Virus record (IMG/VR): IMGVR_UViG_3300043411_001016
Coordinates: 1 to 34,161 of that record
Source: a virus
Strand: one strand, 5' to 3'
DNA length: 34,161 bases
Positions within the stretch are counted from its first letter, which is position 1. Every line of letters starts with the position of its first letter. Positions 6,784 to 34,161 of this stretch are shown here, piece by piece. The position numbers and the translations under genes were made by a program. The notes beneath the pieces were generated by a model, which was not told where the DNA came from, did not search any database, and saw only the letters and a list, made by a program, of their open reading frames with translations.

Positions 6784-7215
6784 ATGACGAAAATGATTGT
6801 CAGCCTGCACAAAGGTCACCCAACTGGAACAATGAGAAGATGCGGAATTGAATTCACCAAAGAAAAGAAAGAGATTGATGTCTCAAAAGAAGATGCTTTG
6901 ATCATTGAAAATGAAAGACGACTTGTTGTCTCAAAAGAAGATGCTTTGATCATTGAAAATGAAAGACGACTTGTTGTCTCCAAGGACATGACAAGGGAAA
7001 TCAAGCAAGACGAAGTCAAGCCTGTGAGTACAGGAGTAGTTGCAGAAGAATCAAATGAAACTGATTCTGATCCTGTGCCTTCTTCAAAGGTAAAAATTGA
7101 TTACGAAGAAATGACAATGAGTGAATTGAAAATGATGTTGACAAACGCAGACGTTGAATTCGGAGCAAGAGCAAGCAAGAGCGATCTGATAAAGCTTGCG
7201 AAGAAATTGAAATAA
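6784..7215 (+). CDS. Hypothetical protein with internal duplication and C-terminal HeH/SAP-like motif
   Basis: 143 residues. A 16-residue unit, VSKEDALIIENERRLV, occurs twice in tandem, coded by two identical 48-base units (6880-6927, 6928-6975). The last 35 residues, MTMSELKMMLTNADVEFGA and the following Lys-rich helix, look like the short helix-extension-helix/SAP-type motif seen at the end of several small phage head and tail proteins. Its place directly after the capsid gene suggests a head or neck accessory protein. No TGA is used. TTTTATAC and TATATATT lie just upstream. Confidence 0.75.
   Translation: MTKMIVSLHKGHPTGTMRRCGIEFTKEKKEIDVSKEDALIIENERRLVVSKEDALIIENERRLVVSKDMTREIKQDEVKPVSTGVVAEESNETDSDPVPSSKVKIDYEEMTMSELKMMLTNADVEFGARASKSDLIKLAKKLK
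6880..6975 (+). repeat. 48-bp exact tandem duplication within a CDS
   Basis: Two identical 48-base units, 6880-6927 and 6928-6975, followed by the first five bases of a third. The unit length is a multiple of three, so the frame is kept and 16 residues are duplicated. Perfect identity suggests a recent event or a repeat that varies in copy number. Confidence 0.95.
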
Positions 7216-18753: not shown

Positions 18754-19113
18754 ATGGATCGAAAAGTTTCGAGAGGGGACAAGTTCACAACTCCGATCAC
18801 AGTCACGGATCAAGACGATGTTGCAATTGATCTGACAGGTGCAACAATCTTTTTCATTGTAAGGACAACAAAAACTCCTGACGTGAGCGATACTGACGAC
18901 AACGATTCGACAGTTTTGTTCTATGTCACGCAAGCTTCACACACAACACCTTTGTCAGGGATCAGTTCGATCGCATTTACAAGCGCAAACCTTACGCAGA
19001 CGCCGTGAACGTACTTTTATGAATTGCAGATCAAGTTCAGTAATGGAGACATAAGAACAGCGGACGTTGGGAAATTTACGATTTTAGCTGATCTTAACCG
19101 TCGCACAACATAA
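18754..19113 (+). CDS. Baseplate upper-protein-like (BppU N-terminal type) domain protein
   Basis: 119 residues. It starts MDRKVSRGDKFTTPITVTDQ and continues with AIDLTGATIFFIVRTT, the pattern of the immunoglobulin-like BppU N-terminal domain: RGDtf...DLtGatv.f.v. These domains anchor receptor-binding proteins to the tail tip. TAA 19111-19113 overlaps the next ATG (TAATG). GTATTTATTTTTC precedes the start. Confidence 0.75.
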
Positions 19114-19838
19114 TGACTGAAACAATCAAAGCGGTATTTGAAACGACCGAGATCAAGATCAAGTTTCCATGAACTCAAGGTGTTCCGGGCGGTCAAGGTG
19201 ATACGTGAGAAACTTGACCGACTTGACCTGCTTGAATGAATCGACAAGGTGCTTGGAGTGCTGTCACCGCGTATGTTATAGATGACGCAGTTTCTTTGAA
19301 CGGGTCTTCTTATATTTGTATATTATGAAATACGAATCAGACTCCTCCGAACGCTACATATTGGCAGGTTTTGGCAAGTAAGTGAGACACGGGGAACACT
19401 GGAGCAACTGGTGCAACGGGGAACACTGGAGCAACTGGTGCAACGGGGAACACTGGAGCAACTGGTGCAACGGGGAACACTGGAGCAACTGGTGCAACAG
19501 GGACAGGTGTTGACTCATTCTTCACAACGACAAGTGTCACAACTTCAGCAACACCAACTCCAACAGGTGGAACGCAATTCAATGAATACTATTTGACAGC
19601 ATTGGCGGAGAGTGCAACTTTCGCAGCTCCTTCGTGAACGCCAGTGAATGGCTACAGACTTATGATAAGAATAAAAGACAACAACACCGCAAGACCTTTA
19701 GCTTTCAATGCAATCTATAGAGCAGTCGGAATCACGTTTCCAACAACAACAGTATTATGAAAAACAACTTATTTGCTTTGCATCTATAACAGCGCAGATA
19801 CTAAACGAGACGGTGTAGCTTTAGCACAACAAGCATAA
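19113..19838 (+). CDS. Collagen-like tail fibre protein with carbohydrate-binding module
   Basis: 241 residues. A short Gly-X-Y run, [20 protein letters not shown] onward, has its first Gly and four others coded by TGA, direct proof of the code. Next is a module with [20 protein letters not shown] and a closing W, like chitin/cellulose-binding CBM5/12 domains. A second collagen stretch is made of four identical 27-base units, each coding TGNTGATGA. The C-terminal 95 residues form a beta-rich head. Triple-helical Gly-X-Y shafts are common in phage fibres. It sits between the BppU-like anchor and a lectin-like protein, so all three may form one adsorption device. Confidence 0.82.
19389..19496 (+). 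repeat. Four tandem 27-bp collagen-coding units
   Basis: Identical units at 19389-19415, 19416-19442, 19443-19469 and 19470-19496, each coding nine residues (three Gly-X-Y triplets). Glycines here are GGG, GGA and GGT, never TGA, unlike the first collagen segment of the same gene. Identity of all four copies points to recent slippage expansion; copy number may vary between strains. Confidence 0.95.
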
Positions 19839-23195: not shown

Positions 23196-24221
23196 ATGGA
23201 CGTACATATTTGAAAATGAATAAGTCCTTTGTCAGAGCAGGATATGCTTGATATGTATAAAGTGAATCAAGATTTTCGAGAGCCTAGCAGATTGAAACAT
23301 AATAACCGACCGACGACAGTCAGGCGCGCAGACGGTGAAATTTCACAGGTACTGAATCACCAAACGACACTGGAGTTGAAACCCAAGTACAATTCTTTGG
23401 TTCCTGAACGGAGCGTTGAAATTATGAGCGCATTATTGTCTAAGAATGGACAGGCTCCAAAGGTATTTGAGCGCTCGCCTGCAGTAGAGGGAAACATACT
23501 AGGAGGGGTGCTATTCAGTGACCTTCATTTCGACCGTACAGACGTAGAAAACACTCCTATACAAAGGAGAATGGAGCATGCAACTGAATGTTATAAGAGG
23601 GCTATAGATAGAGTACTTATGTTCAATCCTGACAATCTTCTAGTTGGCTCTATAGGCGACACACAGAACACAGATTGAAGGTATTCCACAACGAGTTGAA
23701 AACATCACCAACAAAATAGTGTATCAGAACAAGATGCTTTCAAGTATGTATTTGAATGGAGCGTATGAATGCTAGAGTACATACATCAATTTAGATTGCC
23801 TGTGGAGTACGCACAAGTTTGAGGAAATCATGACTTTTTGACTTCATATCACATGGGTATAGCACTACAAGCATACTTCCATGACAGCGATATCAATATT
23901 GTAGTGTCTAAAAATAGATTTTACAAAGAGCGATGAGATATACTGATTATGCTTTCTCATTGAGAGGCCGAGACACCTAAAAGGGTATTGGAGATAGCAG
24001 TAAATGAATTTGTTAGGAAAAAATATAATCAGATGTATTCATATATGGGCCACAAGCACATCAAGGAGATGCAGCAAGTGTGACCTATGGTGAACAAGAG
24101 GGTCGGAGCTTTGGTGCCGCCTAGCGAATGGGAAGCAAAATTTTGATACAAACCATACAAAGGCATGAGCTGATTTGTACGAGACAAAGAGCAAGGAGAA
24201 ATTGCAGATTTGAAAGGATAA
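23196..24221 (+). CDS. Calcineurin-like metallophosphoesterase
   Basis: 341 residues. The five metal-binding blocks occur in order: VLFSDLHFD (D109, H111), LLVGSIGDTQNTDG, VGGNHDF, IMLSHGE and YMGHKHIKE. This is the two-metal phosphodiesterase fold shared by Mre11/SbcD nucleases and many phage enzymes. TGA codes the first Gly of GGNHD and the Gly of SHGE, both family glycines. Residues 1-100 carry an extra N-terminal region of unknown role. The substrate cannot be read from sequence; nuclease or cyclic-nucleotide phosphodiesterase are both possible. It is the last + strand gene before the minus-strand unit. Confidence 0.88.
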
Positions 24222-24234
24222 TGGTTAAATAAAA

Positions 24235-24258
24235 AAACCGACTCTGTCAAGTCGGTTT
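24235..24258. terminator. Bidirectional terminator between convergent units
   Basis: AAACCGACT (24235-24243) pairs with AGTCGGTTT (24250-24258) with a 6-base loop. On the + strand it ends the phosphoesterase transcript. On the minus strand it is followed by TTTTTTTATTT, a strong T-run, so it also terminates the minus-strand operon. Confidence 0.85.
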
Positions 24259-24305: not shown

Positions 24306-24992
24306 CTAGGTGTTGACTGCGGTTTGCAACATTCAGTCAATTTCAATTTTGTTGTCAATAGGGGAGTGGGGGAGTTCAACTTTTTGTTCGATTGGTTCGG
24401 ATTGGATCTCGATCGGCTTTGCAAGAATTCATGTGTTGATATACCTGCGGATCGTTGAGATCATGTCGAACTGACTTCGTTCACTGTTCAGAACTCTTGC
24501 ATTGTTTTCTCCTCTTGATAGGATTCAGATCGATTCAAGCTTGTCTGCAATTTCGGTGAACCTATGTCTTGCGATTCAGAACTTTGCTTCGACTTCCGTA
24601 CGTTTGAAACTCCTGAACTTGATCAGGTGTGCGATCAATTCGTTGACTGGAATACCTTCAATCATTTCTTGTGATTCTGACTCCTCTGCTATTTCCTGCA
24701 CTTCGTCCATACCGACGAACTGCACTGTCGGAATACTGTTCAGAATACTCTTCAGATTCATGAAGCCAAAGAAGCAAACAGGGACCGTCACCATAAAGAA
24801 CGCATGTGCTTCCCGGGTTGATCGGAATCGGTCTGCTGTCTCTTGCTGATTCGTCAACACATAGATCACAATGACTGCGCTGATAAATAGCACAACGTTT
24901 CTTACTATTGTTGACAATGGTGATTCCTCGACGGTATCAAGCACTTTGTTTCGTACGATTGAACTGAATGTTCTTTGTGTTTGTGTTTCCAT
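24306..24992 (-). CDS. Membrane-anchored winged-helix protein, FtsK gamma-like
   Basis: 228 residues on the minus strand. Two hydrophobic segments (about 32-47 and 63-79) place the rest on one side of the membrane. Residues about 113-170 (NELIAHLIKFRSFKRTEVEA, then KFGIARHRFTEIADKLESIG and ILSRGENNARVL) follow the FtsK gamma winged-helix pattern, in which a helix-turn-helix is followed by QMEaqGIVs and a wing ending R-VL. Known FtsK gamma domains read short DNA signals and contact XerD; no ATPase motor is present here. G139 and G156, inside the DNA-binding domain, are TGA, so the standard code cuts it in two. The tail is acidic and Pro-rich. Role unknown: a membrane-bound regulator, DNA tether or exclusion factor are possible. 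Confidence 0.7.
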
Positions 24993-24994
24993 GG

Positions 24995-25186
24995 TTATTT
25001 ATTTTGAAATGATAAAGACAGATCTTCACACTGCTCTCTTTCCATTTCAAGGAGTGCATGCAGTTTTTTGCTTCGTACACGAAGGAGGTGTGTTGAACGC
25101 ATGACGTCCTGCTCTTTCGTGTAACTGCTCCGAACGGACATTGTCTCGACTTGCAGTCTGTCCATGGCCTTGATTTTGTTTTTCAT
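24995..25186 (-). CDS. Small basic protein, first gene of minus-strand operon
   Basis: 63 residues from ATG at 25186-25184, MKNKIKAMDRLQVETMSVRS then a Lys/Arg/Glu-rich helical remainder. The frame is open further upstream, but this start lies about 27 bases after the predicted transcription start and is preceded by TATTTATTACTTACACC, the same leader type used on the + strand. Its TAA is two bases from the next gene's ATG, so both are one operon. No TGA codons. No family recognised; size and charge would fit a small regulator. Confidence 0.6.
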   Translation of the reverse strand: MKNKIKAMDRLQVETMSVRSSYTKEQDVMRSTHLLRVRSKKLHALLEMEREQCEDLSLSFQNK

Positions 25187-25422
25187 TTGTGTTTTGGTGT
25201 AAGTAATAAATACAGTTATATTATAATGATTTGAAAGCGGTTTGTCAAGTATTTGGGGACTTTTTTCGATAGCCAAAAAACCGCTATACAAAGCCGTTGT
25301 TGTGTTTTTGGTCAAATATTATGAAATAAAATCGCAATAATAAAAGATGAAATGTGTATAAATCACTTGCAATCTGTATGTCAAAGAATACAAGGTTGTT
25401 GTTTTATTTTGTAACCGTACAA
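25187..25422. promoter_or_regulatory. Divergent intergenic control region
   Basis: 236 bases separate the minus-strand operon from the + strand replication genes. It holds the consensus minus-strand promoter (25220-25248) and an inverted pair AGCGGTTT (25236-25243) and AAACCGCT (25278-25285). One arm lies inside the promoter spacer. Nearer the right end is the 17-base leader TTTATTTTGTAACCGTA (25403-25419). The layout suggests an operator that could switch between the two directions; no + strand promoter as good as the minus one is visible. Confidence 0.6.
25220..25248 (-). promoter_or_regulatory. Consensus sigma70-type promoter (minus strand)
   Basis: Read on the minus strand: TTGACA (25248-25243), exactly 17 bases, TATAAT (25225-25220). 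Transcription would start near 25213, about 27 bases before ATG 25186. It is the best promoter match in the window. The spacer contains AAACCGCTTT, one arm of an inverted repeat, so it may be repressible. Confidence 0.85.
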
Positions 25423-25614
25423 ATGAAGTTCACAAACGAAGAACTGATCAATATCCGAGAGCTGACAAGAAGACTGCTCTTCTTTGGCGAAGTGATGTTC
25501 TTCATCTTCCGACTTCTCGATCCTGCTGTGTCCTTCCGAGACTGGCAGATTGTCCTTGTCTCGTTGACCGCAATGTTCATCGCTGTCGAAATATTGGTGG
25601 AAAAATATCGGTAG
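25423..25614 (+). CDS. Small two-span membrane protein
   Basis: 63 residues, MKFTNEELINIRELTRRLLF onward, with hydrophobic segments at about 18-31 and 41-58 and a short basic end (VEKYR). No TGA codons. ATG 25423 is chosen because the 17-base leader TTTATTTTGTAACCGTA ends three bases before it; an in-frame ATG at 25354 would add 23 residues. First gene of the + strand early region. Function unknown. Confidence 0.65.
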   Translation: MKFTNEELINIRELTRRLLFFGEVMFFIFRLLDPAVSFRDWQIVLVSLTAMFIAVEILVEKYR

Positions 25615-25638: not shown

Positions 25639-26646
25639 ATGGAAATCAAAAAGTTCAAACCTGTTGACCATTATGTCAGATGTACAATTTACGGTGCGTC
25701 AGGAGTTGGAAAAACTGTCTTCGGGGGAACTGCTCCGAATCCAATCTTCGCTTCTTCTGAATCATGACTGCTCTCTATTGTCTCAACACTCGGGTACTCT
25801 CCGGACTACGTCGACATCAAAACCGTGAAAGATCTTCAGGATCTGTACAAATTCTTGAAGGAGTGAAAGCACGAATACAAAACACTTGTGATTGATTCGC
25901 TGACAGAGATCAACGAAATCATAAAAGAATGAATCGAGAAGAAAGTCTGACGCTGAATGCAAAGGAATGATCGAGGTGAACTTGCGAAACAGATCAAAGG
26001 AATCATTCGTGCAATGAAAGATCTTCCGATTCATATCATTGTCATTTGTCAGGCGAAAGAAACCGTCGACGACGACTGAAAAGTGATCCATGTCAAACCA
26101 ATGTTGAACGGGAAGAATGCAGACGAAGTTGCCTATCTCATGGACATCGTTTGATATATGTACATAAACAGTCAGGGGATTCGTGTGATCACAACTGCTC
26201 CGAACGACAAGCTTGTCAGCAAGGACCGCACGGGAAAACTTGCAAACCTTTGACCTTTGGTTGCACTTGATTTCAAACAGTGGATCGAAGCAGTTCAAGA
26301 ACTTCAGATCCCTGTTGTGCAGAAAATAAGTTTGAAAAACTGAAAGGTATCTGATGCGCCGCAGCAAAAAACGGAGAAGAATATTGAAGACGTAGTACAA
26401 CAAACAGTGCAAGAAAATTCGAAGATCCTTCTTGCAGACAAAGAAACGGCAGGAAAAACTTTTGTCACATTCACCAAAAAAGCATATCCGTGACAGGATC
26501 CAAAACAAGCATTTGCTGAACTGGTAGCAACAGAGTTTGAATGAAAGAAGATCGACGAACTGACTGAAGCGGAAGGAAAGAAACTTGTTGAACACATTCA
26601 AGCACTGATCGAAATGTTCGAAGCAATGCAGGTGGCCAATAAATAA
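25639..26646 (+). CDS. Sak4-like RecA-fold ATPase (AAA_24), probable recombination protein
   Basis: 335 residues. Walker A is GASGVGKT at 19-26, followed by PNPIFASSESGLLSI, typical of AAA_24/Sak4 ATPases. Walker B is TLVIDSLTEIN at 82-92, and IHIIVICQAKE looks like sensor 1. Phage Sak4 proteins work with single-strand DNA and annealing partners in recombination-dependent replication. The C-terminal 90 residues (KNIEDVVQQTVQ onward) are helical and extra to the core. About twelve glycines are TGA. It starts the replication block with the HTH and initiator genes. AAA_24 assignment is firm; the recombination role is from the family. Confidence 0.82.
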
Positions 26647-33701: not shown

Positions 33702-34161
33702 TCAACATATATTCCGATCCGCAACCAAGACAGGTTGCTTTTTTCAATTCAACGGCAAAATATCGTTTGTATGGTTGACAGAAAGGCGGTTGAAAATCTC
33801 GGGCGATGCGCTCGGAGGTGTGTCGTCTTGCTATGTCGAACAAGGTCCGTGGCCTTGTGCTGCGTAGGACAACAGACGAAATTCAGGAAAATATGCTGAC
33901 GCCAATTATGTCAGAGATTCCGCCTTCTTTGTACGAATGGAGAGACAAGCGTTGAATCATGAAGTTCAAAGAAACAGGATCGACAGTCAAATTCTGATAT
34001 TGTAGGAACCTGAAGGACGTTCTTCAATACCAGTGAGTTGAGTTTGATTTCATTTGTATTGAAGAGTTGACGCACCGATCTGAACAGGAGTTCAGAATCT
34101 TGATGACGTCTTTGAGAAGTTCAAAGAAGTATGTGAACACAAGCTTCTTCGGTTCCACGAA
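33674..34161 (+). CDS. terL: Terminase large subunit, N-terminal part (continues at base 1)
   Basis: ATG 33674 begins MKNKGEGKVINIYSDPQPRQ; an in-frame TAG at 33662 limits the start. Walker A is LYGGQKGGGKS at residues 32-42, with TGA for Gly35 and for Gly40 just before the catalytic Lys41. VRGLVLRRTTDEIQENM follows, as in terminase ATPases. Residue 89 ends at base 33940, and the frame then runs on through the copy of bases 1-221 to the window end. The full protein is 465 residues. Confidence 0.95.
33941..34161. repeat. Right copy of terminal overlap
   Basis: This is the second copy of bases 1-221, with G at 34037 where base 97 has A. Both copies are in frame within terL, so removing one closes the genome at about 33,940 bp. 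Confidence 0.9.

Follow-up and report, generated by a model that had tools for sequence, protein, structure and literature searches.

Here we found that a lone minus-strand transcription unit in a complete tailed-phage genome encodes a 228-residue protein predicted to carry two membrane spans and a winged-helix domain, and that this protein belongs to a family with members in six phages. We tentatively propose that the membrane-anchored winged helix reads a phage-specific site and tethers phage DNA for replication or partition, a reading which we would put somewhat short of even; a membrane-bound regulator is its close rival. The six-member family is undescribed. Single phage genes of the FtsK gamma type and the membrane-anchored DNA-binding proteins of phi29 are known, and what is new is the combination.

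The window, that is the whole stretch of DNA analysed, was the complete IMG/VR virus record of 34,161 bases, in keeping with its presumed viral origin. The two ends (bases 1-221 and 33941-34161) were 99.5% identical and form a direct repeat, which had not been recognised as such, and the terminase gene was split over both. Because of this 221-bp terminal repeat the map was taken as complete, at about 33.94 kb. Genes of a tailed phage were found for the portal, major head protein, terminase, amidase, Sak4, an SbcD-like exonuclease, and a replication initiation protein. In-frame TGA was frequent across the window, and comparison with standard-code homologues placed it at Gly in 53 of 91 aligned residues, with Ala second (9/91). 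Since the standard-code relatives mostly carry Gly at these places, the reading of TGA as Gly, on which the original prediction had made the domain depend, is supported beyond a merely open frame. The 228-aa gene itself has in-frame TGA at residues 139, 156, 188, and 220. Gly139 (codon at 24576..24578, minus strand) is invariant across all six homologues, being encoded by GGN in the standard-code members and again by TGA in the other code-25 member, and Gly is the most frequent residue in the column of G156.

The sequence of 24306-25186 on the minus strand was read as a single transcription unit made up of a promoter, a 63-aa gene, a 228-aa gene, and a terminator. Both open reading frames lay where they had been predicted, with the small basic protein P0002 encoded first (24995..25186, minus strand) and the two-span, winged-helix protein P0001 second (24306..24992, minus strand). 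The claimed consensus promoter was confirmed as TTGACA-17-TATAAT (25220..25248, minus strand), which matched the sigma-70 consensus at 12/12 positions; a scan of both strands of the window gave no second full match, the runner-up reaching 11/12. An intrinsic terminator with a 10-bp stem and a T run was found by hairpin folding at 24235..24258 on the minus strand. It had been described as shared, which held in part: the hairpin and T run are strong on the minus strand, whereas on the plus strand the hairpin has no good U tract. Every well-scoring supported frame elsewhere was on the plus strand, so the unit does stand alone; the few minus-strand frames with comparable codon scores were all antisense to confident plus-strand genes. 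Its convergent neighbour on the plus strand is an SbcD/Mre11-like DNA repair exonuclease (23196..24221; phrog_704, E 1.6e-27), and its divergent early-gene neighbour is a Sak4-like annealing ATPase (25639..26646, plus strand; phrog_124, E 2.9e-50). Between the unit's promoter and Sak4, a small hydrophobic frame was read at 25423..25614 (plus strand), possibly encoding a partner protein or one of holin type.

In codon use the 228-aa gene scored 0.07, compared with 0.19 for typical genes of the window, and the 63-aa gene scored -0.10. Because these scores are low for the genome, the case for both genes being real is their conservation. The family was invisible to a direct search, in which the window protein alone gave no match in Pfam, PHROG, PDB sequences, or GenBank phages. 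Relatives were reached by walking, starting from the nearest relative by major head protein and continuing with Sak4 and profiles. Five were obtained, all from uncultured phages: G006, L103, L172, and L175, which use the standard code, and L176, whose long frames are open only if TGA is not a stop, making it a second code-25 phage. G006 is the nearest phage to the window by major head protein (49% identical), and its homologue showed 42% identity across residues 105-169 with an E of 2.3e-13. Over the full length, the five homologues were 24-28% identical to the window protein, and they aligned over the whole layout. Such sharing of the layout takes the unit beyond chance.

A search of other code-25 phages for the same arrangement had been proposed as a check, and one of them showed it, together with the four standard-code phages. 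L176 mirrors the whole unit: it has TTGACA-16-TATAAT, a 64-aa protein (L176:5526-5717:+), and a two-span protein together with a terminator, and the unit is likewise alone on its strand. The 64-aa protein was 30% identical to P0002 in an almost ungapped alignment (score 85, equalled by 0 of 1000 shuffles). This agrees with the claim of a small basic protein, and the reality of the 63-aa product rests on this homologue, since its own codon score is negative. The short frame of L175 was borderline, 31 of 1000 shuffles being as good, and the small upstream frames of G006, L103, and L172 had no detectable relation to the 63-aa protein. In G006 the first frame encodes 47 aa and is hydrophobic rather than basic, and the winged-helix gene is followed by a third gene (L096:7564-7809:-) for an 81-aa protein with CxxC motifs, preceded by a GGAGG ribosome site, so the G006 unit differs from that of the window.

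Further searches did not enlarge the family. A scan of viral contigs with the neighbouring exonuclease gave no relatives, and a plasmid search and a consensus search of GenBank phages returned just generic HTH or chance matches. No member had a convincing match in Pfam, PHROGs, or PADLOC, or a detectable relative in GenBank phages. No member was found in 289 genomes of one bacterial phylum, a set which was drawn around an unrelated Sak4 match and is uninformative on the real hosts. Two candidates were rejected: a long match in L002/L003 lay antisense and contained an internal stop, making it an artefact, and a weak match in L147 was an out-of-code frame within another gene.

To describe the C-terminal domain, the six-member alignment was modelled with AlphaFold2. 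Residues 111-187 (24432..24662, minus strand) were given as helix-helix-helix-strand-strand-helix, with pLDDT block means of 71-88 over residues 111-190; the model was poor outside the domain, and a model of the domain by itself had a mean pLDDT of 77.9. Winged-helix matches were returned for this region by both Foldseek and VIA. On these models a winged-helix fold is very likely, as structure prediction had been expected to show. The domain had also been called FtsK gamma-like, which stood at the level of fold and fell at the level of family. E. coli FtsK gamma ranked first among Foldseek PDB matches in both runs (2j5p, E 0.14 and probability 0.99 with the full model; E 2.7 with the domain model), and P. 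aeruginosa gamma (2ve8) gave a TM score of 0.64-0.70 by target length with an rmsd of 2.0-2.4. By VIA, gamma reached Z 5.6 with an rmsd of 2.2 over 61/62 residues, with Csa3, Cdt1, IscR, and CymR equal or slightly above, and the structure matches also included the plasmid centromere binder AspA.

Sequence profiles placed the domain outside the gamma family. A two-member profile found FtsK gamma as its sole match among PDB sequences (E 0.18-1.4), and with a three-member profile MarR and others ranked above gamma. The profile search proposed in the original prediction went against it: at the curated cut-off, PF09397 missed all six proteins, and a PF09397 search of the whole window genome was empty, compared with matches in 8 of 14 control genomes. 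With a gamma HMM made from 26 sequences, none of the six rose above noise, and the hhalign profile-profile probability was 12.7%. True FtsK_gamma membership was therefore rejected, and gamma may pass as a fair nearest neighbour of the domain. As had been claimed, the protein has no motor, Pfam finding none in the 228 aa and no RecA-like motor lying between the spans and the domain.

We then compared conserved and variable positions. Residues G113, F138, G139, L152, E153, L158, R160, G161, and N164 were invariant across the six members. The wing (residues 157-168; 24489..24524, minus strand) carries the signature L-x-RGENN-x-R-[VI]-L, its motif RGENN.R[VI] being present in five of six members; besides the four invariant wing positions (L158, R160, G161, N164), E162, N163, and R166 were each kept in five. 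In the recognition helix (residues 142-154; 24531..24569, minus strand), pairwise identity fell to 0.0-0.2 at positions 142, 143, 144, 146, and 147. Mean pairwise identity was 0.59 for the wing and 0.35 for the recognition helix, to be read with six sequences as a pattern and not a statistic. A variable recognition helix beside a near-constant wing fits a common grip on DNA at different sites, each in the phage's own genome, and variation of this helix between phages argues against a single conserved host site.

This bears on an alternative in which the protein would interfere with host chromosome segregation, as a decoy FtsK gamma acting on KOPS-like sites or competing with host FtsK. The first rank of gamma with both Foldseek models is what speaks for it. 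From an alignment and the numbering of the C-terminus of E. coli FtsK, residues 1300, 1303, and 1306 were placed at window residues 147, 150, and 153. In the six members these positions read E/K/K/S/R/K, D/D/K/K/N/K, and an invariant E. Reading of KOPS requires R1300, E1303, and E1306 (PMC2680272), and one of the three, the E1306 equivalent, is kept. With PF09397 unmatched and R1300 and E1303 gone, interference based on KOPS found no support, and we consider a host-directed decoy very unlikely, the least probable of the readings.

The claimed pair of membrane spans was seen as two hydropathy peaks ahead of the domain in all six members. In the window protein, span 1 covers residues 29-47 (24852..24908, minus strand), after a helix at 9-23, and span 2 covers residues 66-84 (24741..24797, minus strand); AlphaFold2 placed helices at 9-23, 25-47, and 59-86 with low confidence. 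Span sequences were poorly conserved among the six members, as expected of a plain anchor. Several members have K/R-rich segments on both sides of the span pair, as would suit a cytoplasmic domain, and the window protein has an acidic linker past span 2, leaving its topology ambiguous. The winged helix is predicted to be cytoplasmic. An early membrane protein with its own promoter could also serve superinfection exclusion, blocking entry of other phages' DNA while the winged helix binds the incoming molecule, and the locus, judged from known phages, would be typical for exclusion genes beside lysogeny modules. We find this improbable, as known small exclusion proteins need no conserved DNA-binding wing, and the best PADLOC matches (E 0.005-0.02) were scattered among unrelated models.

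To place the gene in its genomic setting, we compared the six loci. In all of them it lies between lysis-side or tail-end genes and the early replication genes: the window, G006, and L103 have it adjoining Sak4, and L172, L175, and L176 have it where the lysis and early genes meet. Its neighbours are encoded on the other strand in the window, G006 (where it immediately precedes Sak4), L175, and L176; it is co-directional with the early genes in L103, where it runs with Sak4, and in L172. Two near-identical temperate code-25 contigs (L003:2110-4647 and L002:1-2538) carry a Ser recombinase, an ImmA-like peptidase, and an HTH repressor on the minus strand beside Sak4, so that an integrase/ImmA/CI-type module occupies the same place and strand as the window unit, next to the Sak4 early operon. 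This module holds a soluble HTH repressor and a recombinase, whereas neither was found in the member phages, save for one weak repressor match. Among the six member records, of which the window is complete and the other five may be fragments, no integrase (PF00589, PF00239) and no ParA-type ATPase was found, and an HTH_3 repressor was absent from five, including the window, with a weak sub-cut-off match in G311, the record of L175. PF00239 was positive in G002/G003, and HTH_3 was positive in the L002/L003 records.

These comparisons bring in the close rival, a membrane-bound regulator that would amount to a pared-down switch for immunity or lysis timing, sited where lysogeny genes usually lie. 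Its winged helix would act on the divergent early promoter region, and its anchor would couple it to an infection or envelope-stress signal. What the temperate contigs carry at this place, together with the missing HTH_3 repressor in five member genomes, suits such a switch, even though no integrase was found in any member. Four of the six genes have the opposite strand to themselves, and both code-25 cases add a strong promoter and a terminator of their own; the two genes that run with the early genes (L103, L172) depart from this pattern. The recognition helix varies as in phage repressors, yet no significant operator dyad was found near the promoter, where an 8-bp inverted repeat (AGCGGTTT/AAACCGCT) around the -35 region was equalled by 22% of shuffles. 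Taken together, we regard a membrane-bound regulator as doubtful, though second in rank. It may also be that the membrane-anchored winged helix replaces the lysogeny module at the lysis/early junction, as a membrane-based centromere or switch. We give this little credence; if true, integrase-less phages could maintain themselves in, or keep step with, the small cells of Gracilibacteria/Absconditabacteria and of other hosts.

Occurrence of the gene was patchy, since seven Sak4-sharing loci (L001, L002, L003, L101, L105, L106, and L124) gave no match to it. This, like the separate promoter and terminator and the atypical codon use, might be expected of a moron, an accessory gene carried passively with a function unrelated to phage DNA. 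Retention of both place and layout in phages with just 24-28% full-length identity speaks against passive carriage, which we rate marginally below exclusion. Exclusion, the host-directed decoy, and passive carriage are each less likely than the tether or the regulator.

In the tethering mechanism that we favour, the strong promoter would drive the small basic protein and the inner-membrane protein against the rest of the genome, and the two N-terminal spans would hold the winged-helix domain at the cytoplasmic face. Each phage's domain would bind a site in its own DNA through the varying recognition helix and the near-constant wing, and the DNA so held at the membrane could have its replication or partition organised there, in the manner of phi29 p16.7. 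DNA binding, own-site specificity, tethering, a role in replication or partition, and a role of the small protein are what we infer from these features. Several results argue for a tether: the same motor-less layout in six members, the structural matches to DNA-binding winged helices including FtsK gamma and AspA, and the perfect promoter and small partner shared by the two code-25 members. With no integrase or ParA-type ATPase found in the members, a tether would duplicate no known partition system. We ranked it narrowly first because the gene stays by the early genes whatever its strand, and because an anchor would have little obvious purpose otherwise. Other results argue against a tether. 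The surroundings of the unit showed no significant iteron or repeated operator, the acidic linker leaves room for another topology, and a lone opposite strand with a strong separate promoter is commoner for regulators and accessory genes than for replication genes. The analogy with p16.7 is itself weakened, as that protein has a single anchor and a different DNA-binding fold.

Comparison with known systems further set the family apart. FtsK has four membrane spans, compared with two in the phage family. Like the predicted phage domain, FtsK/SpoIIIE gamma (PF09397; 2j5p, 2j5o, 2ve8, 2ve9) is a winged helix of about 60-70 residues in a membrane-anchored protein, and the two align in register at the F-x-I turn, in helix 3, and at the LE-x-x-GI end. 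The phage family differs in having no Pfam match, no motor, lost KOPS-reading residues, and its own wing, RGENN.R[VI]L. The phi29 protein p16.7 would be comparable as a membrane protein of a phage in which one part binds DNA; it has been proposed to recruit the phage's DNA to the membrane and interacts with the terminal protein and ssDNA, and a sequence relation to the phage family is not expected. Both p16.7 and p1 serve to attach phi29 replication to the membrane (PMC4974454). The Bacillus phages Sam46 and Sam112 carry stand-alone or terminase-fused FtsK_gamma, whose role as a single gene is unknown (PMC8190038). These are likewise gamma-type winged helices in phage proteins without a motor, but they match PF09397 strongly (E about 2e-27, PMC8190038) and keep the DNA-binding residues, whereas the phage family has neither and adds membrane spans. 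In a viral fold search, the Sam46 small terminase came at rank 16 with an E of 0.28.

Almost all that is known of phages of code-25 candidate phyla comes from sequence, and a function has been assigned to few of their accessory genes. This compact conserved unit yields a testable prediction, namely membrane location together with phage-specific DNA binding, and since the family spans standard-code and code-25 phages, a standard-code member could be tested in laboratory strains. It also suggests a possible role for motor-less gamma-type phage domains, listed as unknown in PMC8190038. As to the hosts, standard-code phages possibly infecting code-25 hosts have been described, and code-11-compatible Gracilibacteria phages favour TAA stops (PMC10746230). 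TAA ends most genes in the standard-code relatives L095, L096 (G006), and L103, and such a preference in the G006 and L103 relatives fits code-25 hosts without proving them.

Some minor features were recorded besides. In the window, the protein from 6784-7215 has a perfect tandem duplication (VSKEDALIIENERRLVVSKEDALIIENERRLVVSK), and a tail-region protein (19113-19838) has collagen-like GATGNTGATG repeats. L172, a phage of 44% GC with a family member, encodes at L172:2028-2675 a protein containing a very long stretch rich in alanine (AAADAAARAAA...).
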